From Bacteroidota bacterium (lineage in GTDB: Bacteria > Bacteroidota > Bacteroidia > Chitinophagales > JADIYW01): 41,521 bases of DNA. Within the stretch, counting starts at the first letter, position 1, and every line of letters begins with the position of its first letter. Below are positions 17,529 to 38,565 of this stretch, piece after piece. Made by a program: the position numbers and the translations under genes. The stretch covers positions 1 through 41,521 of the forward strand of contig JAQBNI010000119.1 of assembly GCA_028288625.1 (NCBI GenBank). The letters are read 5' to 3'. The notes beneath the pieces are model-generated. The model did not search any database, was not told the origin of the DNA, and saw only the letters and a list, made by a program, of their open reading frames with translations.

Positions 17529-18875
17529 ATGTCAGATACAAAAACAATCTCACAAGCGCCGGAAATAATTAAGGACAACCAGGATTACACTTTATTTTCC
17601 TGGAGTAAACAGAAAGGTACTTCACCGATTGCTGTAAAATATGGTGAAGGCGTTTATTTATATGATTATGACGGAAAGCGTTATATCGATTTTTCTTCCG
17701 GCTTGATGAATGTAAATATTGGTCACGGCAACCAACGCGTAACCGATGCAGTGGTAAAGCAAATGCAGGAAGTTGCTTATGTAACGCCAAGCTGTGTCAC
17801 TAAAGTGCGCGGAGATCTTGGAAAAAAATTAGCCGAAATGTGTCCCGGCGATTTGAACAAAGCATTCTTCACGGTTTGCGGCGCAACGACGATTGAAAAT
17901 GCAATCAAGCTGGCGCGTATCTATACTGGTCGTCATAAAATCTTAGCACGCTATCAATCTTATCACGGTGCAACTTATGGTGTAATTTCTGCAGGCGGCG
18001 ATCCGCGTAAGTTACCTGTCGATGCACAGCAGGCGCCGAACTTTGTGCACTTTGATATTCCGAATGCATACCGCTGGGAATATGGAGAAGAAAATTTATT
18101 GAAAGATGCAGTAATGCAGTTAGAACGTGTGATCGCGTTTGAAGGTCCGGGAAATATTGCCGCTATTTTACTGGAAGGCGAATCCGGTTCTTCAGGATGT
18201 TTTAAGTATCCGGTTGGTTACATGAAAAAGTTGAGAGAGATCTGCAATAAGCATGGCATCCTTTTAATTATAGATGAAGTGATGAGTGGCTTTGGAAGAA
18301 CCGGTAAAACATTTGGTTTTGAGCATCACGATATTATTCCCGATATGATTGCGATGGCGAAAGGATTGACTTCAGGCTATCTTCCGTTCGGGTGTTTAAT
18401 GGTTTCCGATAAGATCGCTTCAACCTTTGAAGACAAGATGCTGCCACTAGGATTAACTTACTCGGCACATGCCGTTTGTTGTGCTGCTGCGCTTGAAGTA
18501 TTGAAAATATATGAAGACGATAATTTATTTGCAAATGCAGCGGAGATGGGAAAATATATCGAGCAGCGCGTGGAGGAAATGAAGGGCAAGCATAAAAGTA
18601 TCGGCGATTTTCGCAACACAGGTTTATTAGGCTGTATTGAATTAGTGAAAAACCGGGATACAAAAGAACCGATGGCGCCTTTTAATGCAAAGCCTGAAGA
18701 AATGGTGGTGATGAATAAAGTCGCGGCAAAAATAAAAGAACTCGGCATGTACACTTTTGTGCGATGGAATTTCATTTTCATTGCGCCGCCGTTATGCATC
18801 ACTAAAGAACAAATCGACGAAGGACTTGCAATCATCAGCGAAGCAATAGCGATCGCTGACGCGAATGTTGAATGA
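17529..18875 (+). CDS. Class III aminotransferase, probable beta-alanine aminotransferase
   Basis: This 448-residue PLP enzyme of the class III (omega) aminotransferase family shows the PLP ring-binding Asp249 in LLIIDEVMSGFGRTG, the Schiff-base Lys278 in MAKGLTSGYLPFG, and the substrate-side HGATYG and TYSAHAVCC motifs. Its place between a malonate-semialdehyde dehydrogenase and the dihydropyrimidinase / beta-ureidopropionase genes points to beta-alanine as amino donor, with pyruvate or 2-oxoglutarate as acceptor, giving malonate semialdehyde. The family alone does not fix the substrate: taurine, GABA and ornithine enzymes look similar, so the context decides. The last codons (NVE) read into a heptad repeat tract that begins at the stop. 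Confidence 0.85.
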   Translation: MSDTKTISQAPEIIKDNQDYTLFSWSKQKGTSPIAVKYGEGVYLYDYDGKRYIDFSSGLMNVNIGHGNQRVTDAVVKQMQEVAYVTPSCVTKVRGDLGKKLAEMCPGDLNKAFFTVCGATTIENAIKLARIYTGRHKILARYQSYHGATYGVISAGGDPRKLPVDAQQAPNFVHFDIPNAYRWEYGEENLLKDAVMQLERVIAFEGPGNIAAILLEGESGSSGCFKYPVGYMKKLREICNKHGILLIIDEVMSGFGRTGKTFGFEHHDIIPDMIAMAKGLTSGYLPFGCLMVSDKIASTFEDKMLPLGLTYSAHAVCCAAALEVLKIYEDDNLFANAAEMGKYIEQRVEEMKGKHKSIGDFRNTGLLGCIELVKNRDTKEPMAPFNAKPEEMVVMNKVAAKIKELGMYTFVRWNFIFIAPPLCITKEQIDEGLAIISEAIAIADANVE

Positions 18876-18949
18876 TAAATTTTAAATGTTGAATTATTTC
18901 TTTCGTTTCGTTTCATTTAAAATTTAGAATTCAAAATTTAAAATTTTTA
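18865..18949. repeat. Heptad-phased inverted repeat (19-bp arms)
   Basis: Left arm 18877-18895 and right arm 18928-18946 are complementary at 18 of 19 positions. Both are made of 7-base units (ATGTTGA, ATTTTAA / ATTCAAA, ATTTAAA). The loop is 32 bases. The left tract overlaps the last codons of the aminotransferase and the right one ends directly at the permease ATG (18950), leaving no room for an ordinary ribosome-binding site. Confidence 0.8.
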
Positions 18950-20422
18950 ATGTCTGAACAAAATAAAATATCATCCTCTCTCTACAGCGAAGATCTCGCG
19001 CCTGTGCCACCGGAAAAAAGAACCTGGAACACCTGGAACTATGCAGCGCTATGGATCAGCATGAGTTTATGCATTCCAACCTATATGCTCGCAAGCTCTC
19101 TCATTGAAGGCGGTATGAACTGGTGGCAAGGTATCCTTACTATATTTATCGGTAACGCAGTAGTACTAGTTCCAATGATCTTGAACGGACATGCAGGCGC
19201 GAAATACGGAATACCATTTCCGGTACTCGCGCGAGCGAGCTTCGGAACAAAGGGTGCAAATATTCCAGCCATGCTGCGCGCGATCGTGGCATGCGGATGG
19301 TTCGGCATACAAACATGGATCGGAGGATTTGCATTGTATCAGATGTTCCGCTTATGGTTTCCCGCATTGGAAACGTTACCGCAAATTTTTCCTGCATCCT
19401 GGACATTACAAACAGGACCTGCCATTTGTTTTCTTGCATTCTGGCTGCTGAATATGTATGTCGTCTATCTCGGGGTAGAAAGTATTCGCAAGCTTTTAGT
19501 CTTTAAAGCATTTTTCTTACCTGCAGCTGCTCTAGCCTTATTATTCTGGGCGATCAGCGCGGGGCATGGACTAGGACCGATCTTAAAACAACCATCGAAA
19601 TTTCATTCCACCATTGATTTCTTTCATTTCTTTTTCCCTGCATTAACAGGTATGGTGGGATTTTGGGCAACGCTGTCGCTGAATATTCCTGATTTCACGC
19701 GTTATGCAAAAAGTCAGAAAGCACAAATCGTCGGACAAGCTATTGCATTGCCGTCTTCCATGACCTTATTTTCTTTTATAGGAGTTGTGGTTACCTCAGC
19801 AACGGTCATTATTTACGGTACAACGATCTGGGATCCATTGGCATTGGCAGGAAAATTTGAAAGTAAATTATTGGTGAGTATTGCAATGATCGCGGTAGCG
19901 ATCTCTACACTTGCCACAAACATTGCAGCAAATATTGTGAGTCCTGCAAATGATTTTGCAAACCTCGCTCCGTCAAAAATTAATTTTCGCATGGGCGGAT
20001 TGATCACGGGCATCATCGGTATCCTTATTTTTCCGTGGAAACTGATTGCGGATCCGAACGGTTACATATTTACCTGGCTGGTAGGTTATTCAAGTCTACT
20101 GGGACCTGTCGGCGGCATCATGATCATCGATTATTATTTTATAAAGAGACGAGAACTGGATACCGAAAATTTATATAACCCTCACGGTATCTATAGTTTT
20201 AATAACGGCATCAATTATGCGGCGGTTGCTGCATTGCTCATCGGCATTTTACCGAATGTGCCAGGGTTCTTAGCAACTACAAAAATGATCAATACAGATG
20301 CTGTGCCACAATGGATATTAGGATTGTATAACTTCGCGTGGTTCGTGGGATTTTTTATTTCGGGATTAACTTATTATGCCATGATGCGCAATTATAAAGC
20401 TGCAGTAAAATTAGCGATATGA
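18950..20422 (+). CDS. NCS1-family nucleobase:cation symporter (likely uracil/cytosine permease)
   Basis: The 490-residue protein is an NCS1 (Mhp1/Fui1-like) transporter with about 12 membrane segments. Family motifs include the N-terminal LAPVPPEKRTWNTWNY, GAKYGIPFPVLARASFG, RAIVACGWFGIQTWIGG (substrate and cation site region), N-I-P-D-F-T-R-Y-A and A-A-N-I-V-S-P-A-N-D-F. NCS1 proteins carry pyrimidines, purines, hydantoins or allantoin with Na+ or H+. With a cytosine deaminase overlapping its stop by four bases, and uracil reduction genes downstream, cytosine/uracil uptake is the best inference; hydantoin or allantoin remain possible. Inner membrane. Confidence 0.88.
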   Translation: MSEQNKISSSLYSEDLAPVPPEKRTWNTWNYAALWISMSLCIPTYMLASSLIEGGMNWWQGILTIFIGNAVVLVPMILNGHAGAKYGIPFPVLARASFGTKGANIPAMLRAIVACGWFGIQTWIGGFALYQMFRLWFPALETLPQIFPASWTLQTGPAICFLAFWLLNMYVVYLGVESIRKLLVFKAFFLPAAALALLFWAISAGHGLGPILKQPSKFHSTIDFFHFFFPALTGMVGFWATLSLNIPDFTRYAKSQKAQIVGQAIALPSSMTLFSFIGVVVTSATVIIYGTTIWDPLALAGKFESKLLVSIAMIAVAISTLATNIAANIVSPANDFANLAPSKINFRMGGLITGIIGILIFPWKLIADPNGYIFTWLVGYSSLLGPVGGIMIIDYYFIKRRELDTENLYNPHGIYSFNNGINYAAVAALLIGILPNVPGFLATTKMINTDAVPQWILGLYNFAWFVGFFISGLTYYAMMRNYKAAVKLAI

Positions 20423-22517: not shown

Positions 22518-22519
22518 TT

Positions 22520-22762
22520 TTAATGTTGTATGCTAAATGTTGGATGCAAAAATGTCGATTGCTTCAAAAGAAGCAAGGGAAACTAAGTATTGGTTAAAGT
22601 TGTTGGCGAAAAGTAAATTAGTGGATTTGGATTATTCAGAATATACAAAAAAAATCAATTACATTATTAATGTTATCACCAAGATTATCATAACCAGTCA
22701 AAGAAGCATAAAATTATAATGTCACATTCAACATACATCATTCAACATTCAACATATTAATA
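22520..22762. repeat. Heptad-armed element enclosing a truncated four-helix-bundle gene
   Basis: The left arm (22522-22546; ATGTTGT, ATGCTAA, ATGTTGG) and right arm (about 22724-22758; ACATTCA, ACATACA, TCATTCA, ACATTCA) are built of 7-base units. In the best register the arms are complementary at about 19 of 24 positions. They enclose the 3' part of a four-helix-bundle gene. The right arm ends just before the ATG of the beta-ureidopropionase gene. Confidence 0.7.
22537..22719 (+). pseudogene. N-terminally truncated four-helix-bundle (23S rRNA IVS-type) protein
   Basis: The 60-codon frame corresponds, from its sixth residue on, to the C-terminal half of the 118-residue protein encoded at 25192: KMSIASKEARETKYWLKLL against KMSIAAKEARETRYFLRIL, and ITSQRS near both ends. 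The first ~63 residues (two helices) are missing and are replaced exactly at the junction by a heptad repeat arm. Without the first helices the bundle cannot form as in the family, so this is treated as a relic inside the catabolic operon. Confidence 0.75.
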
Positions 22763-23630: not shown

Positions 23631-23737
23631 TATGTTGTATTCTAAATGTTGTATGTTGTATTAAAAGCTTTCAAAAGAGAGGAATTGTCATAACTACATA
23701 TCATACAACATTCAACATACAACATTCAACATAATAA
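23631..23737. repeat. Heptad-phased inverted repeat without an enclosed gene (17-bp arms)
   Basis: Arm 23645-23661 is complementary to 23710-23726 at 16 of 17 positions. Units are ATGTTGT and ATTCTAA on the left, and CATACAA and CATTCAA on the right, with period 7. The 48-base interior has no open frame. It lies between the beta-ureidopropionase stop and the preT start. Confidence 0.85.
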
Positions 23738-23744
23738 AAAAGGA

Positions 23745-25085
23745 ATGCCAATAGAAAATAATAGATTAACATCAGATCAGTACCAAGAGAATTTCTCCGA
23801 CATTCATCCGCCGTTTGAAACAAAGGAAGCTGCGTTGACGGAAGCAAACCGCTGCTTGTTTTGCTACGATGCGCCATGTATGAAAAGCTGTCCGACGAGT
23901 ATCAACGTTCCGAAATTCATCAAGCAGATCACAACCGATAATGTGAAAGGATCCGCACATACTATTTTTGAATCTAATATTTTAGGCGCGGGATGTTCCA
24001 GGGTTTGCCCGGTAGAAAAATTATGCGAAGGCGCTTGCGTATATAATTTAATGGACGAGACGCCGATCCATATCGCGAAGCTGCAAAGATATTCTACGGA
24101 AATGGCTTTGGAAAAAAAGTGGCCGCTGTTTATTCGCAAACCATCCAATGGAAAAAAAGTAGCCATAGTTGGCGCAGGTCCTGCGGGATTGAGCTGCGCG
24201 CATGTTTTGTCGAGAGAAGGAATAGATGTAACGGTTTATGAAAAAGAAAGCAAGGGCGGCGGGTTAATGACCTACGGTATTGCAGCATATAAAGTAACGC
24301 CTGCATTTTGCGAAGAAGAAGTAAATTATATTTTATCCATCGGAGGCATTGAAATAAAATACAACCATGAACTCGGGAAAAATATTACACTGGAAGAATT
24401 GCAGAAGAATTATGATGCGGTTTACTTAGGTTTTGGCGTTGGTGTTGCACGACAATTAAATATTCCGGGTGAAGAACTCGAAGGCGTTGTGGATGCAATC
24501 AGTTTCATTTACGATGTAAGAACGAAAGGATATGAAAATGTTCCTGTCGGTGATAAAGTCGCGGTGATCGGCATGGGCATGACCGCTATTGATGCGGCGA
24601 CGCAGGCGAGAAGGCTCGGTGCAAAAGAAGTGACATTGGTTTATAGAAGAACACAGGAAGAAATGCCATGCACGGAAGCAGAGCTCGATATTGCAATGCT
24701 CGACGAATGCAAGATAATCTGGCTCGCTGCACCGAAAGAAGTAATTGGCGGCGGAGGGAAAGTAGTTAAACTGGTTTGCAGTGTAATGAAACTTGGAGAA
24801 CCGGATGCGAGCGGCAGAAGATCGCCGGTAGAAACAGATGAAACACTTACATTGGATGTGGACATGGTCATAAAAGCAGCAGGACAAATACCATTTACGG
24901 AACTCGTAAATAAAAATTCGATTGAAAATGCAAACGGAAAAATAAAAATAAATAATACAGCAACAAACATCAAAGGTGTTTTCGCCGGCGGGGATTGCGT
25001 CAACGGCGGCAGGGAAGTTGTGGATGCAGTGCAAGCAGGAAAAGACGGAGCCTTTGAAATACTGAAGTATTTCGAAGAATTATAA
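23745..25085 (+). CDS. preT: NAD-dependent dihydropyrimidine dehydrogenase, subunit PreT
   Basis: The 446-residue flavoprotein matches PreT / GltD-like subunits. The N-terminal Fe-S domain has Cys37, 40, 45 and 49 (CLFCYDAPCMKSC) and Cys84, 88, 94 and 98 (CSRVCPVEKLCEGAC). The FAD-binding GAGPAG (143-148) and the NAD(P)-binding VIGMGMTAIDAA follow, with the closing FAD motif VFAGGDCVNGG. Known role: with PreA it forms a heterotetramer that reduces uracil or thymine with NADH to the 5,6-dihydro forms; the N-terminal half of mammalian dihydropyrimidine dehydrogenase corresponds to PreT. preA is downstream, but a four-helix-bundle element (25085-25633) separates the two subunit genes, which is unusual for an obligate complex. 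Confidence 0.92.
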   Translation: MPIENNRLTSDQYQENFSDIHPPFETKEAALTEANRCLFCYDAPCMKSCPTSINVPKFIKQITTDNVKGSAHTIFESNILGAGCSRVCPVEKLCEGACVYNLMDETPIHIAKLQRYSTEMALEKKWPLFIRKPSNGKKVAIVGAGPAGLSCAHVLSREGIDVTVYEKESKGGGLMTYGIAAYKVTPAFCEEEVNYILSIGGIEIKYNHELGKNITLEELQKNYDAVYLGFGVGVARQLNIPGEELEGVVDAISFIYDVRTKGYENVPVGDKVAVIGMGMTAIDAATQARRLGAKEVTLVYRRTQEEMPCTEAELDIAMLDECKIIWLAAPKEVIGGGGKVVKLVCSVMKLGEPDASGRRSPVETDETLTLDVDMVIKAAGQIPFTELVNKNSIENANGKIKINNTATNIKGVFAGGDCVNGGREVVDAVQAGKDGAFEILKYFEEL

Positions 25086-25633
25086 ATTTTAGATTTTAAA
25101 TTATAAATGATAGTGTGTAAATAGATTTTATGCTGGAACTTAAATGTAGATTGAACTAACTGCATCCATTCCTAATCATAAAATTAAAAAAATGAAAACA
25201 GAAAATGTTATTGTAGACATGACCTTTGACTTTGCATTACAAATTGTTGAATTGTATAAAAAATTGGTAATACAAAAAGAGTTCGTACTGTCAAAACAAT
25301 TATTAAAATGCGGCACAAGTATCGGTGCAAATGTAGAAGAAGCAATTGCAGCACAAAGCAAAAAAGATTTTATATCGAAAATGTCGATCGCAGCAAAAGA
25401 AGCACGTGAAACAAGATATTTCCTTAGAATCTTAGACCGAAGTAAGTTAGTGGATATGTGTTATACACGATACATTGAATTTGTAACGCGTATAATGAAT
25501 GTGCTGACAAAAATAGTAATGACGAGTCAGCGAAGCTTAGATAAATAACTATAAAATTAAAGAGAAGGATTAAGATTAGACGATCAGGAATTGTCTGATT
25601 TCATCTAAAATTTAAAATTTAAAATCTAAAATT
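25085..25633. repeat. 549-bp element: 24-bp near-perfect inverted repeats around a four-helix-bundle gene
   Basis: The left arm 25085-25108 and the right arm 25610-25633 are complementary at 23 of 24 positions. Both consist of 7-base units (AATTTTA, GATTTTA / TTTAAAA, TCTAAAA). Between them is the complete gene at 25192-25548. The element separates preT from preA; its left end begins at the preT stop and its right end lies five bases before the preA ATG. In RNA the arms would form a long stem. Confidence 0.85.
25192..25548 (+). CDS. Four-helix-bundle protein of the 23S rRNA intervening-sequence family
   Basis: The 118-residue protein fits the small four-helix-bundle family (TIGR02436, 'S23' or IVS proteins). 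Recognisable parts are F-A-L-Q-I-V-E-L-Y-K-K-L near the start, S-K-Q-L-L-K-C-G-T-S-I-G-A-N-V-E-E-A, the K-K-D-F-I-S-K-M-S-I-A-A-K-E-A-R-E-T-R-Y core, and the terminal helix ending T-S-Q-R-S. Such genes were first described inside intervening sequences of 23S rRNA genes; the fold is also related to the Avd accessory protein of diversity-generating retroelements. The molecular function is not established. Here it is in the sense direction inside an operon, enclosed by 24-bp inverted repeats, with a truncated relative 2.6 kb upstream. Confidence 0.88.
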   Translation: MKTENVIVDMTFDFALQIVELYKKLVIQKEFVLSKQLLKCGTSIGANVEEAIAAQSKKDFISKMSIAAKEARETRYFLRILDRSKLVDMCYTRYIEFVTRIMNVLTKIVMTSQRSLDK

Positions 25634-25638
25634 ACACA

Positions 25639-26907
25639 ATGGCAGATATAACCTCAAACTTCCTCGGCATAAAATCCCCTAACCCCTTCTGGTTAGCAAG
25701 CGCGCCGCCGACGGATAAAAAAATAAATGTCCTTCGCGCATTCGAAGCAGGCTGGGGCGGAGTGGTTTGGAAAACCTTAGGCTCGCAGGTAAAAAATGTG
25801 TCCTCGCGTTATTCAGCAGTCGACTATCACGGCAGCCGCGTCATGGGCTTCAACAACATAGAGCTCATCAGCGACCGCCCGCTCGATATCAACTTAAAAG
25901 AAATTGTGGAAGTTCTGAAATTATTTCCCGACCGCGCTATGGTCGTTTCACTCATGGCGGACAACGACCGCAAAAGCTGGCATGATATCATCGCGAAAGT
26001 AGAAGATACTGGTGCACACGGACTCGAATTAAATTTCGGATGTCCGCACGGCATGACGGAAAGAGGCATGGGCGCAGCGGTGGGACAGGATCCCGAGATC
26101 GCGCGCATGGTGGTGGAATGGGTGATGGAAAAAGCGACGATTCCCGTGATCACGAAGCTCACGCCAAATGTACATTCCGTGGTGCCGACAGGTAAGGCTG
26201 CAGTGGAAGCCGGAACAAGTGCATTGTCATTGATCAACACGATACAATCCGTTACGGGAATTAATTTAGATACGCTGGTGCCGAACCCTTATGTGGCGGG
26301 GAAGTCGGTGTTTGGCGGTTACTGCGGACCTGCGGTAAAACCGATCGCATTAAAATTCCTGACGACGATCGCGCAGGATGCAACAACATCGAAAGTGCCG
26401 GTGTCAGGAATCGGAGGGATCAGTACATGGAAGGATGCTGTTGAGTTTATGCTCCTCGGCGCGAGCAATGTGCAGGTGTGCACGGCGGCGATGAAGCACG
26501 GCTTCCGCATCGTGGAAGACATGTGCGAAGGGCTGAACAACTGGATGGATGAAAAAGGATTTAAAACGCTCGATGATTTTATCGGCAAGAGCGTAAATAA
26601 AATTGTGCACTGGGAAGATCTCGATATCAACTATCACCACATCGCGCAGATCGACCAAACCAAATGTATTCACTGCGGCTTGTGTTATATCGCGTGCGAG
26701 GATACTTCGCACCAGTCCATCAACCTCGATTTCGGCAAGCCTTACAATACCTATACGATCAAGGATGAAGAATGTGTGGGCTGCAATTTATGCGAGCTCG
26801 TTTGCCCGGTGGAAAATTGCATCACGATGGTAGAACACCGCGTTGCGCCGGAGTATGTGAACTGGATAGACTATCAGAAGTTGGGATTGCCGTTGAATGA
26901 TCATTAA
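25639..26907 (+). CDS. preA: NAD-dependent dihydropyrimidine dehydrogenase, subunit PreA
   Basis: This 422-residue FMN TIM-barrel protein with C-terminal ferredoxin domain matches PreA. Features: N-P-F-W-L-A-S-A-P-P-T, L-E-L-N-F-G-C-P-H-G-M-T-E-R-G-M-G, K-L-T-P-N-V, G-G-Y-C-G-P-A-V-K-P-I-A-L, S-G-I-G-G-I (FMN phosphate) and N-V-Q-V-C-T-A-A. Two [4Fe-4S] motifs follow: Cys343, 346, 349 and 353, and Cys379, 382, 385 and 389 (Cys394 nearby). It reduces uracil or thymine using electrons passed from PreT. The loop that in mammalian enzymes carries the general-acid Cys (ACGQD) reads A-A-V-G-Q-D here (Val148). The last 21 bases of the gene (26887-26907) are repeated at 26948-26968. Confidence 0.92.
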   Translation: MADITSNFLGIKSPNPFWLASAPPTDKKINVLRAFEAGWGGVVWKTLGSQVKNVSSRYSAVDYHGSRVMGFNNIELISDRPLDINLKEIVEVLKLFPDRAMVVSLMADNDRKSWHDIIAKVEDTGAHGLELNFGCPHGMTERGMGAAVGQDPEIARMVVEWVMEKATIPVITKLTPNVHSVVPTGKAAVEAGTSALSLINTIQSVTGINLDTLVPNPYVAGKSVFGGYCGPAVKPIALKFLTTIAQDATTSKVPVSGIGGISTWKDAVEFMLLGASNVQVCTAAMKHGFRIVEDMCEGLNNWMDEKGFKTLDDFIGKSVNKIVHWEDLDINYHHIAQIDQTKCIHCGLCYIACEDTSHQSINLDFGKPYNTYTIKDEECVGCNLCELVCPVENCITMVEHRVAPEYVNWIDYQKLGLPLNDH

Positions 26908-31123: not shown

Positions 31124-31194
31124 CGGTCGGTAGCTTAATGGATAGAGCTCGGTAGACTAAGCCGAAGATGTAGGTTTGACTCCTACCTGACCTA
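31124..31194 (+). tRNA. Degenerate tRNA-like gene
   Basis: A cloverleaf can be drawn. Acceptor CGGTCGG (31124-31130) pairs with CTGACCT (31187-31193) except at the first pair. The D arm is GCTT...GAGC with the typical AATGGATA loop. The anticodon stem TCGGT/GCCGA closes the loop AGACTAA. The T arm is GTAGG/CCTAC with loop TTTGACT. D and T arms look genuine, but position 33 is G instead of the invariant U, base 26 is missing, and the anticodon would read ACT in a body without the long variable arm of a serine tRNA. A strong terminator follows at once. It is either a decayed tRNA (perhaps an integration-site remnant) or an odd functional one. Confidence 0.45.
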
Positions 31195-33457: not shown

Positions 33458-33543
33458 CTATCATTGAGAGACATTAATGATTGCAATTCCATAAAATCAA
33501 AATTAATTTTTTAATTTATTGTACTGTTTGAAGCACCACAAAC

Positions 33544-33708
33544 TGTCATTTCGACACAGCACAGTAATCTTGCAAATTAAGTATTTTGATTCTGAGAGGA
33601 GAAACCTCGCTTTTTTATAAAAATACGTACCGTTGAAAAAAGGCAAGGTTTCTCCTTGCCACATTATTTTTCTCAATGCAGCATTTTCATGGCTGTGTCG
33701 AAATGACA
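33544..33708. repeat. 165-bp MITE-like element with perfect 17-bp terminal inverted repeats
   Basis: The terminal 17 bases TGTCATTTCGACACAGC (33544-33560) and GCTGTGTCGAAATGACA (33692-33708) are perfect inverted repeats. An inner pair, GGAGAAACCTCGC and GCAAGGTTTCTCC, is nearly so. Flanking ACCAC/GTGGT also pair. There is no open frame inside. The 33458-33817 spacer holds nothing else recognisable. Confidence 0.85.
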
Positions 33709-33817
33709 GGAGTGGTATTAATGATAATTGGTGGTATAGAATAAAATCATAACTTTATTAGCGAATGTTTATACACAGAATACAATATTATTTATAGCTT
33801 TCTTTCTAAAAAATACC

Positions 33818-36157: not shown

Positions 36158-37603
36158 ATGCCTTTAAAACTGACCAATAGAGAAAAAGAACTGCTGCAGG
36201 TAGTAGCGGAAAGTGCCGACGAACTGAAGGTAAACGCTTATGCAGTCGGTGGTTTCGTTCGTGATAAAATTTTAAAACGGGACAGCAAGGATATTGATAT
36301 TGTATGTGTCGGAAGCGGGATAGAACTCGCTAAAACAGTAGCACATAAAATCTCAAATGATAAAACACTAAACGGCGCACGAAAACCTTTCGTCAGTTAT
36401 TTTAAAAATTTCGGAACCGCACAGATCAAACTGGAAGATTTGGATCTTGAGTTTGTAGGTGCGAGAAAAGAATCCTATCGAAGAGACAGCAGGAAACCGA
36501 TCGTTGAAGATGGTACCCTGGAAAACGACCAGGACCGAAGAGATTTTACGATCAATGCGCTGGCAGTTCATCTTTCTAAAAATGAATTTACGGAGATCAT
36601 CGATTCTTTTAATGGATTGGAAGATCTGAAAAACGGCATCATTCGTACACCGTTGGATCCTGCGATAACATTTGACGATGATCCGCTGAGAATGCTGCGT
36701 GCCATCCGTTTTGCTTCGCAATTGGGATTCAAGATCGAAGAAAAAACATACCATGCAATCGAGCCCTTGGCACCAAGGTTAAAAATTATTTCGCAGGAAA
36801 GAGTCATTGATGAGCTGAATAAAATTATTTTATCAAAGAAACCTTCCGTCGGATTTAAATTATTATTCGATACAAAATTATTGCACCAGTTTTTTCCGGA
36901 GATGGTGCGACTGCAAGGTGTTTCTGTCCAGGATAATTACGGTCATAAGGATAATTTTTATCATACGCTGAAAGTACTCGATAATTTATCTGAGCACACA
37001 GACGACTTGTATTTGCGTTGGGCTGCTATACTCCACGACATTGCAAAACCGAATACACAGCGCCTGGAAGAAGGTCACGGATGGACATTTCACGGGCATG
37101 AAGTGGTAGGCGCAAAGATGGTTCCGAAAATATTCAACCGGTTGAAATTACCGCTGGACGACCGAATGAAGTTTGTACAGAAATTAGTCATGCTGCATTT
37201 GCGTCCCATCTCTCTAACAAAAGAAAATATTACGGATTCCGCGATCAGAAGAATTTTATTTGATGCAGGGGACGACCTGGAAAGCCTGTTAATGCTCTGC
37301 GAGGCAGACATTACTTCAAAAAATGAAGAGAAAGTAAAAAGATACAAAGCCAATTTAAAACTCGTTAAGCAAAAGATAAAAGAAGTAGAAGAGCGGGATC
37401 ATATCCGCAACTGGCAGCCACCGATCGATGGTGAGATCATTATGAAAACATTTCATATTAAGCCTTGCAAAGAAGTAGGCAAAATAAAGAACGCGATCAA
37501 GGATGCTATCCTCGACGGAGAAATAAAAAACGACCATGATGAAGCGTATACTCTTATGCTGAAGCTGGGGAAAGAAATGGGGTTAAGAAATGTTGAATTA
37601 TAA
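36158..37603 (+). CDS. CCA tRNA nucleotidyltransferase / poly(A) polymerase family with HD domain
   Basis: The 481-residue class II nucleotidyltransferase shows G-G-F-V-R-D (32-37), the catalytic K-D-I-D-I-V (44-49), the R-R-D-F-T-I-N-A-L-A motif and D-D-D-P-L-R-M-L-R-A-I-R-F-A for nucleotide selection. A C-terminal HD hydrolase domain follows (H-T-L-K-V-L, L-H-D-I-A-K, F-H-G-H-E). Expected job: adding or repairing the 3' CCA of tRNA, with possible phosphatase or phosphodiesterase activity of the HD part. The last codons (R-N-V-E-L) lie in the left arm of a heptad inverted repeat shared with miaA. A poly(A) polymerase role is less likely in this phylum. Confidence 0.9.
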   Translation: MPLKLTNREKELLQVVAESADELKVNAYAVGGFVRDKILKRDSKDIDIVCVGSGIELAKTVAHKISNDKTLNGARKPFVSYFKNFGTAQIKLEDLDLEFVGARKESYRRDSRKPIVEDGTLENDQDRRDFTINALAVHLSKNEFTEIIDSFNGLEDLKNGIIRTPLDPAITFDDDPLRMLRAIRFASQLGFKIEEKTYHAIEPLAPRLKIISQERVIDELNKIILSKKPSVGFKLLFDTKLLHQFFPEMVRLQGVSVQDNYGHKDNFYHTLKVLDNLSEHTDDLYLRWAAILHDIAKPNTQRLEEGHGWTFHGHEVVGAKMVPKIFNRLKLPLDDRMKFVQKLVMLHLRPISLTKENITDSAIRRILFDAGDDLESLLMLCEADITSKNEEKVKRYKANLKLVKQKIKEVEERDHIRNWQPPIDGEIIMKTFHIKPCKEVGKIKNAIKDAILDGEIKNDHDEAYTLMLKLGKEMGLRNVEL

Positions 37604-37674
37604 ATGTTGAATTTTAAATTATATCGATGGACTCCCGGCATTCAATATTCAACATTCAACATTCAAAATTTCTT
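37585..37674. repeat. Heptad inverted repeat whose arms are coding (CCA transferase end, MiaA start)
   Basis: Arm 37585-37620 and arm 37639-37674 are complementary at about 29 of 36 positions, in 7-base units (ATGTTGA, ATTATAA / ATTCAAT, ATTCAAC), with an 18-base loop. The left arm contains the last codons and stop of the CCA transferase; the right arm encodes S-I-F-N-I-Q-H-S-K-F-L of MiaA. Confidence 0.85.
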
Positions 37675-38565
37675 ATCATCATTGCCGGACCCACGGCTGT
37701 TGGAAAGACTCACATCGCCATTGAAGTAGCGAAACATTTTCAAGCAGAAATTATTTCCGCGGATTCGCGACAACTATTTAAAGAACTGGATATCGGTGTT
37801 GCGCGCCCGGGCGAAGAGGAATTGAAAGAAATAAAACATCATTTCATAGCTAATAAAAGCATTCACGAATATGTTTCTGCCGGAGAATATGAAAGGGAAG
37901 TAATTGATTTACTGGATAAATTATTTAAAGAGCAAAATGTAGTTGTGATGTGCGGTGGAACAGGATTCTATATTGATGCGGTGTGTAACGGCTTTGATGA
38001 AATTCCGGATGTAGATGAAAAGATCCGGGAAGAGTTGAATGCAACTTTTCGCAATGAAGGTATTGGCGTTTTACAGGAAAAACTAAAACAACTCGATACC
38101 GATACCTATAACAATATGGATATTCAAAATTCACAGCGTGTGATCCGCGCATTGGAAGTTTGCATAGGAACGGGGAAGCCACTTTCATTTTTCAAACAAA
38201 AAAGAAAATTGGATCGTTCTTTCATTCCTATAAAAATTTGTTTGAATACCGACCGGGAGAAACTGTATCAAAACATAGACCAGCGTGTTGATACAATGAT
38301 AAAAAATGGTTTGACAGAAGAAGCAAGATCAGTTTATCCCTTCAAAGAAAATAATGCATTGCAAACTGTGGGATATAAAGAATTATTCGATCACTTTGAA
38401 AATAAAATAACTTTGGAGGAAGCGATCAGCAAAATAAAACAAAATACGCGAAACTATGCAAAGCGCCAGATCTCGTGGTTTAAAAGAGATAAGGATTACA
38501 AATGGTTTGATTCGAATGATTGCTCTCTAATTATAAAATACATTGATGAATTTATTAAGCAATGA
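37627..38565 (+). CDS. miaA: tRNA dimethylallyltransferase
   Basis: The 312-residue enzyme has the P-loop A-G-P-T-A-V-G-K-T (20-28), S-A-D-S-R-Q (substrate Asp), G-G-T-G-F-Y-I-D-A, S-Q-R-V-I-R-A-L-E-V, T-V-G-Y-K-E and T-R-N-Y-A-K-R-Q-I-S-W-F-K-R, all MiaA hallmarks. It adds the dimethylallyl group to A37 of tRNAs reading UNN codons. The first ~15 residues (MDSRHSIFNIQHSKF) are unlike other MiaA N-termini and are encoded by the right arm of a heptad repeat; no other ATG precedes the P-loop strand, so the repeat appears to supply the start. The stop overlaps the next start by four bases. Confidence 0.93.
   Translation: MDSRHSIFNIQHSKFLIIIAGPTAVGKTHIAIEVAKHFQAEIISADSRQLFKELDIGVARPGEEELKEIKHHFIANKSIHEYVSAGEYEREVIDLLDKLFKEQNVVVMCGGTGFYIDAVCNGFDEIPDVDEKIREELNATFRNEGIGVLQEKLKQLDTDTYNNMDIQNSQRVIRALEVCIGTGKPLSFFKQKRKLDRSFIPIKICLNTDREKLYQNIDQRVDTMIKNGLTEEARSVYPFKENNALQTVGYKELFDHFENKITLEEAISKIKQNTRNYAKRQISWFKRDKDYKWFDSNDCSLIIKYIDEFIKQ

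Follow-up and report, generated by a model that had tools for sequence, protein, structure and literature searches.

We consider it likely that positions 25085-25633 of the window (the whole 41,521-nt stretch of Bacteroidota DNA analysed here) are one copy of a widespread single-gene mobile element of ~0.4-0.6 kb, which we call the IVP element. Each end of the element is an arm of roughly four tandem heptads, inverted with respect to the other, and the element fills the stop-to-start gaps of operons in the sense orientation, where it would be expressed from the host transcript. In the full model to which this judgement applies, the five subunits of the IVP protein would each recognise one heptad of the element's own arms by its repeated core. 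The protein would also take part in mobility; as no catalytic domain is known in it, an enzyme of the host or another one supplied in trans would probably act alongside it. Within the mRNA, the two arms would pair into a closed stem-loop whose base sets the upstream stop and the downstream start a few nucleotides apart, and the host operon would tolerate the insertion through this folded-out stem, whether or not RNase III cleaves it. Gene-less heptad hairpins would be non-autonomous or deleted derivatives.

The first-pass annotation had described inverted arms that bracket a complete gene between preT and preA of a protein-coding operon, and this description held throughout. The arms lie 501 nt apart, and the gene between them (PF05635, E=5e-22; TIGR02436, E=3.7e-25) is the only sizeable open reading frame of the element. 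The features concerned, with the other heptad structures of the window, are:

23745-25085, + strand, preT-like gene, the upstream host; its stop codon touches the left arm
25085-25108, left arm, quasi-heptad array AATTTTAGATTTTAAATTATAAAT, complementary to the right arm at 23 of 24 positions
25192-25548, + strand, IVP gene for a four-helix-bundle protein of 118 aa (PF05635, TIGR02436; clade 1)
25610-25633, right arm, reverse complement of the left arm; array at about 25598-25638
25639-26907, + strand, preA-like gene, the downstream host; starts 5 nt past the right arm
22519-22759, + strand, second IVP element, decayed, 2.5 kb upstream in the same operon
23632-23736, gene-less heptad hairpin, arms 23632-23655 and 23702-23725, heptad ATGTTGT
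18863-18955, gene-less heptad hairpin (AATGTTG/AATTTTA) in another intergenic gap
37576-37683, gene-less heptad hairpin with 44-nt arms and a 20-nt loop

The final base of the preT stop codon, at 25085, is common to the gene and the left arm. Both arms consist of tandem heptads, a feature absent from the earlier annotation, and the left array reaches beyond its paired part, covering about 25075-25114. Three neighbouring gaps of the preT-preA operon each hold a heptad structure: the element, the decayed element and, at the third junction, between a ureidopropionase-like gene and preT, the gene-less hairpin at 23632-23736. In the decayed copy a truncated IVP ORF (22537-22719) is accompanied by arms at about 22519-22546 and 22723-22759 (heptad AATGTTG) whose score of 12 is weak. 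Elsewhere in the window, at 33543-33709, the two arms of a perfect 18-nt inverted repeat (CTGTCATTTCGACACAGC) are 131 nt apart.

The left arm is 96% A+T (23 of 24 bases), as might be expected if an AT-rich genome simply yielded AT-rich inverted repeats. However, the arm pairing score of 21.5 was reached in 0 of 4000 second-order Markov shuffles (shuffle maximum 16.5), and relatives in the cross-phylum set have arms of ordinary base composition in an unchanged layout; chance is therefore refuted by the shuffles, and by the comparison of both locus sets below with mismatched flanks, to the point of being extremely improbable. Among the flanks of 256 genes shorter than 700 nt (0.9 Mb of genome), the element's score ranks third, and PF05635 genes account for five of the seven top scores. 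An Rfam scan of the window returned one tRNA only, a low-scoring match (38.9 bits) at 31124-31194, with no rRNA and no intron family at gathering score, and rRNA was likewise absent from the 19 least-coding relatives scanned. Intron or riboswitch identity was rejected on the window scan, and anti-phage defence was set aside with 0 PADLOC matches.

We then examined the arms across genomes. The source genome (G000) contains nine PF05635 matches, the window gene and eight others, and eight of the nine lie inside inverted arms (L005 has none; the remnant L009 is weakly armed, with a score of 12). Each armed locus has its own heptad: GTCGTAA, GTTTGCA, AAGGTAT, ATAGTCA, ATTTTAA, GATGAAT, GAATTAT and AATGTTG. 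At least one PF05635 gene was found in 36 of the 41 genomes searched of this order. Loci with enough flank numbered 185 (94 of this order and 91 from many phyla and viral contigs), and their arms were scored against mismatched flank pairs, with the 95th and 99th percentiles of the latter as thresholds. Arms exceeded the 95th percentile at 149 of the 185 loci. In the order set, the mean own-arm score was 16.1 versus 9.1 for mismatched flanks (72 loci above the 95th percentile, 52 above the 99th); in the cross-phylum and viral set it was 19.5 versus 8.8 (77 and 55 loci, respectively). Identity at lag 7 within arms was 0.62 and 0.71 in the two sets versus about 0.25, and, where measured, lags 14 and 21 also gave high values; some elements, judged by eye, have period 8 instead. 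The median element is 458 bp long, with a median of 4.3 heptads per arm.

The heptad core follows the protein. Clade 1 proteins, the window copy included, have arms of AATKNNN and clade 3 proteins have WAGTNNN, and protein clade predicts heptad core with a Fisher p of 1.5e-11 (a statistic that ignores phylogeny). Between pairs at different sites, arm similarity was 6.76 at protein identity of at least 50% versus 4.68 below 35% (non-independent pairs). The window protein is a relative of PDB 2RLD; this structure and 2GSC, the solved relatives, have five chains each, and a title cited by PMC3936711 presents Xcc0516 (2GSC) as an assembly of five four-helix units. We infer that one IVP subunit may read one heptad. 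Terminal sequence varies between copies within one genome, unlike the ends of ordinary transposons. Among Flavobacterium orthologs, a copy's own arms are no better matched than swapped arms (permutation p 0.24), which gives no support to a rapid, concerted change of the arm pair.

Related species differ in what occupies the same junction. At tgt-lptG, G005 and G006 carry the element, and in five congeners (G000-G004) the two genes are separated by a clean 11-47 nt. At the metH junction, within one genus, we found an IVP element in G000, G002 and G004 (the G002 copy without clear arms), a GxxExxY (PDDEXK) gene inside inverted ACGGATT-type arms in G001 (L320), a chimeric ORF with an IVP start fused to a GxxExxY end in G005 (L322), a gene-less hairpin in G007 and a clean gap in G006. 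At gmk-nadD of Flavobacterium, ten species carry an IVP element, most of the other species read carry a gene-less hairpin of GxxExxY type and two carry gene-less heptad hairpins. At preT-preA, the closest relative with this gene pair (G057, preA 86% identical) has no IVP gene; its gap is short and repetitive. Presence and absence at the same site in relatives, the pattern by which transposable elements are recognised, was thus found at tgt-lptG, metH and gmk-nadD. Because one junction may, depending on the species, be clean or hold an IVP element, a gene-less hairpin or a GxxExxY element, mobility of IVP elements is well supported by these comparisons; the earlier suggestion of a small mobile element is also supported by dispersed multiple copies per genome and by arms that travel with the protein clade. 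Insertion is the simplest reading of the site differences, by parsimony, since all comparisons are between species: no same-species empty site or target-site duplication was found, and the nearest empty sites belong to other, too diverged species. As a separate observation, the gene-less hairpins that replace the IVP element at gmk-nadD in Flavobacterium (L380, L383-L393, L398, L401 and L408) are ~110 nt long and have CACAAAG/GCAGAG-type arms. One clade-3 IVP protein had 0 matches among phage records; the plasmid matches came mainly from cyanobacteria and had diverged too far for a comparison of empty sites. Two viral contigs (L281 and L283) are 99.6% identical, and one has two tandem IVP copies sharing a fused heptad array, which could be a recent duplication or a misassembly.

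IVP elements occupy stop-to-start gaps, with the left arm starting a median of 2 nt after the stop and the right arm ending a median of 11 nt before the ATG, and element and both neighbours are co-directional in 133 loci versus 11 in which the element is opposite. Comparison between copies shows the IVP protein to be under purifying selection, with dN/dS of about 0.1-0.2 (simple counting, dS often near saturation). Selection on the protein and sense orientation within operons would also suit a beneficial small host regulator whose arms serve as an attenuator or autoregulatory site and whose mobility is ordinary gene gain and loss only, as would the median heptad number per arm, which is about equal to the subunit number of the ring. 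We regard such a regulator as quite improbable, given that host operons are unrelated, copies are many per genome and in part decayed, and the same sites are held by GxxExxY elements. The stop/start polarity of the arrays was set aside as a sign of strand-specific function, because inward-pointing ends at gap edges produce polarity anyway.

The predicted mRNA fold pairs the two arms (z -3.4). Since the arms pair in this fold and lie at the stop and the start, the folded stem would juxtapose the two codons, a bridging that is the geometry of a predicted fold, and RNA-level processing of the element, as the first-pass annotation proposed, is plausible from the same model. A retromobile route would go further: RNase III would cut the stem-loop out of the transcript, the IVP protein would bind it, and a reverse transcriptase acting in trans would copy it before its reinsertion into intercistronic gaps. 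Arm pairing in the fold, the strong sense-strand bias and the significant similarity of one IVP clade to the Avd protein of diversity-generating retroelements (9e-12, below the model's cut-off) all point this way; yet selection alone also yields a sense bias and a reverse transcriptase is absent beside the element, and we think this route unlikely.

Gene-less heptad arrays are abundant in the source genome, where they are several times commoner than gene-bearing ones. Within 0.9 Mb we counted 59 intergenic period-7 arrays (other periods 0-3, except for 10 at period 8) and 11 hairpins whose loops measure 20-100 nt, three of them in the window, versus none in a Markov control. In the congener G001, which lacks PF05635 genes, 0.77 Mb contained 8 arrays and none of these heptad hairpins. 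Across the 41 genomes, matches to the period-7 pattern numbered 0-4 in the five without PF05635 and had a median of 37 where there were at least three genes; a period-9 control gave about none. Array count and IVP gene count showed a significant raw correlation that was gone after crude subtraction of element arms, and because of this loss we use only the near-absence in IVP-free genomes as evidence, which suggests that gene-less arrays depend on the IVP gene. The earlier annotation had stated that arms occurring equally often without a four-helix-bundle gene, with no RNA cleavage seen, would count against it. In part this is what we found: gene-less hairpins are common, but arrays are nearly absent from relatives without PF05635 genes, a distribution that fits derivatives better than independence.

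Alternatively, the hairpins may have come first, as host intercistronic structures for translation coupling or mRNA stability into whose loops the IVP and GxxExxY genes were inserted as cargo, on the model of rRNA intervening sequences that insert at helix tips. The excess of gene-less over gene-bearing arrays, the closing of hairpins against stop and start codons and the gene-less hairpins at metH and gmk-nadD in some species are consistent with this order of events. It does not sit well with a heptad core that tracks the IVP clade, with the scarcity of period-7 matches in the five IVP-free relatives or with element-free junctions that are usually plain short gaps, and we give it a low probability. 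We continue to read the gene-less hairpins as derivatives of the mobile element.

To our knowledge, the widespread PF05635 'four helix bundle' genes have no assigned function. rRNA intervening sequences have been known since 1993, and insertions in the rRNA of CPR bacteria that encode the same domain are also known. The first-pass annotation likened the element to rRNA intervening sequences, and for those of 23S rRNA the resemblance is real: the protein family is common to both, the ends are complementary and the size is about equal. In Leptospira and Coxiella, intervening sequences with an S23/IVP ORF are about 430 nt long, patchy and suspected to be mobile, and that of Coxiella has a 28-bp stem formed from its complementary ends (PMC4990558). 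Intervening sequences of 23S rRNA are also characterised by removal through RNase III with no religation. Both kinds encode an S23/IVP four-helix-bundle protein between termini able to form a stem, but the IVP element lies between protein-coding genes and outside any rRNA helix, has many copies per genome and gene-less derivatives, and has clade-specific heptad arms (the heptads being read in operon copies). We do not file it as a 23S rRNA intervening sequence because its location is not in rRNA. Tentatively, and with less confidence than for the model above, rRNA intervening sequences might be members that landed in rRNA, within a class of minimal mobile elements that spans phyla and lacks any recognisable transposase. 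Its pentameric nucleic-acid-binding protein would read terminal heptad arrays by period and core, in preference to a fixed sequence and with one subunit on each heptad, and would spread both itself and gene-less hairpins through stop-to-start gaps of operons; the paired arms would keep the operon translatable. If rRNA intervening sequences do belong to the same class, the decades-old question of their protein's role becomes directly testable, and a source may be at hand for many heptanucleotide repeats of bacterial gaps that are so far unexplained.

Other known systems share parts of this layout. REP/REPIN-RAYT systems and MITEs also combine a repeat-framed gene with dispersed gene-less hairpins in one genome; the IVP element, in contrast, has no Y1/HUH or other transposase gene, and its repeats vary from copy to copy, with core and period alone kept. 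Avd has a homologous four-helix bundle, but the match is weak, under the model's cut-off and confined to a protein of the other clade, and the neighbours here are preT and preA, with no adjacent reverse transcriptase as in a diversity-generating retroelement. Group I and II introns differ in having an intron core, none of which was detected by covariance models in the window. The TAACTGA arrays of Beggiatoaceae likewise have period 7 and are intergenic and near start codons, but are reported as direct repeats of a single fixed heptad; that paper does not use the terms S23, four helix or intervening (PMC4679880). No description of intercistronic IVP elements with heptad arms was found in the literature searched, which covers few subscription journals. 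The IVP element seems to be a mobile element of a very small and largely overlooked kind. Its heptad arms provide the PF05635 family with a defined unit and lead to two testable predictions: that an IVP protein binds the heptads of its own clade, and that, owing to the arms, an insertion between stop and start does not silence the downstream gene.

The GxxExxY (PF13366) genes are also single small genes within short-period inverted arms (CACAAAG-type) and use the same insertion junctions. Their protein is of PDDEXK fold, and their arms, present at roughly half of the tested loci, differ in having a period of 8-9 and a more conserved sequence, so that the class is related to IVP elements in layout only. 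A GNAT-like gene with GC-rich inverted flanks (L136) was dropped from consideration, its flanks being without heptads. At 19260-19862 of L139, an EVE-domain-like ORF (start MNYWLMKSEPDV) lies between AGTCGTA-type heptad arrays.
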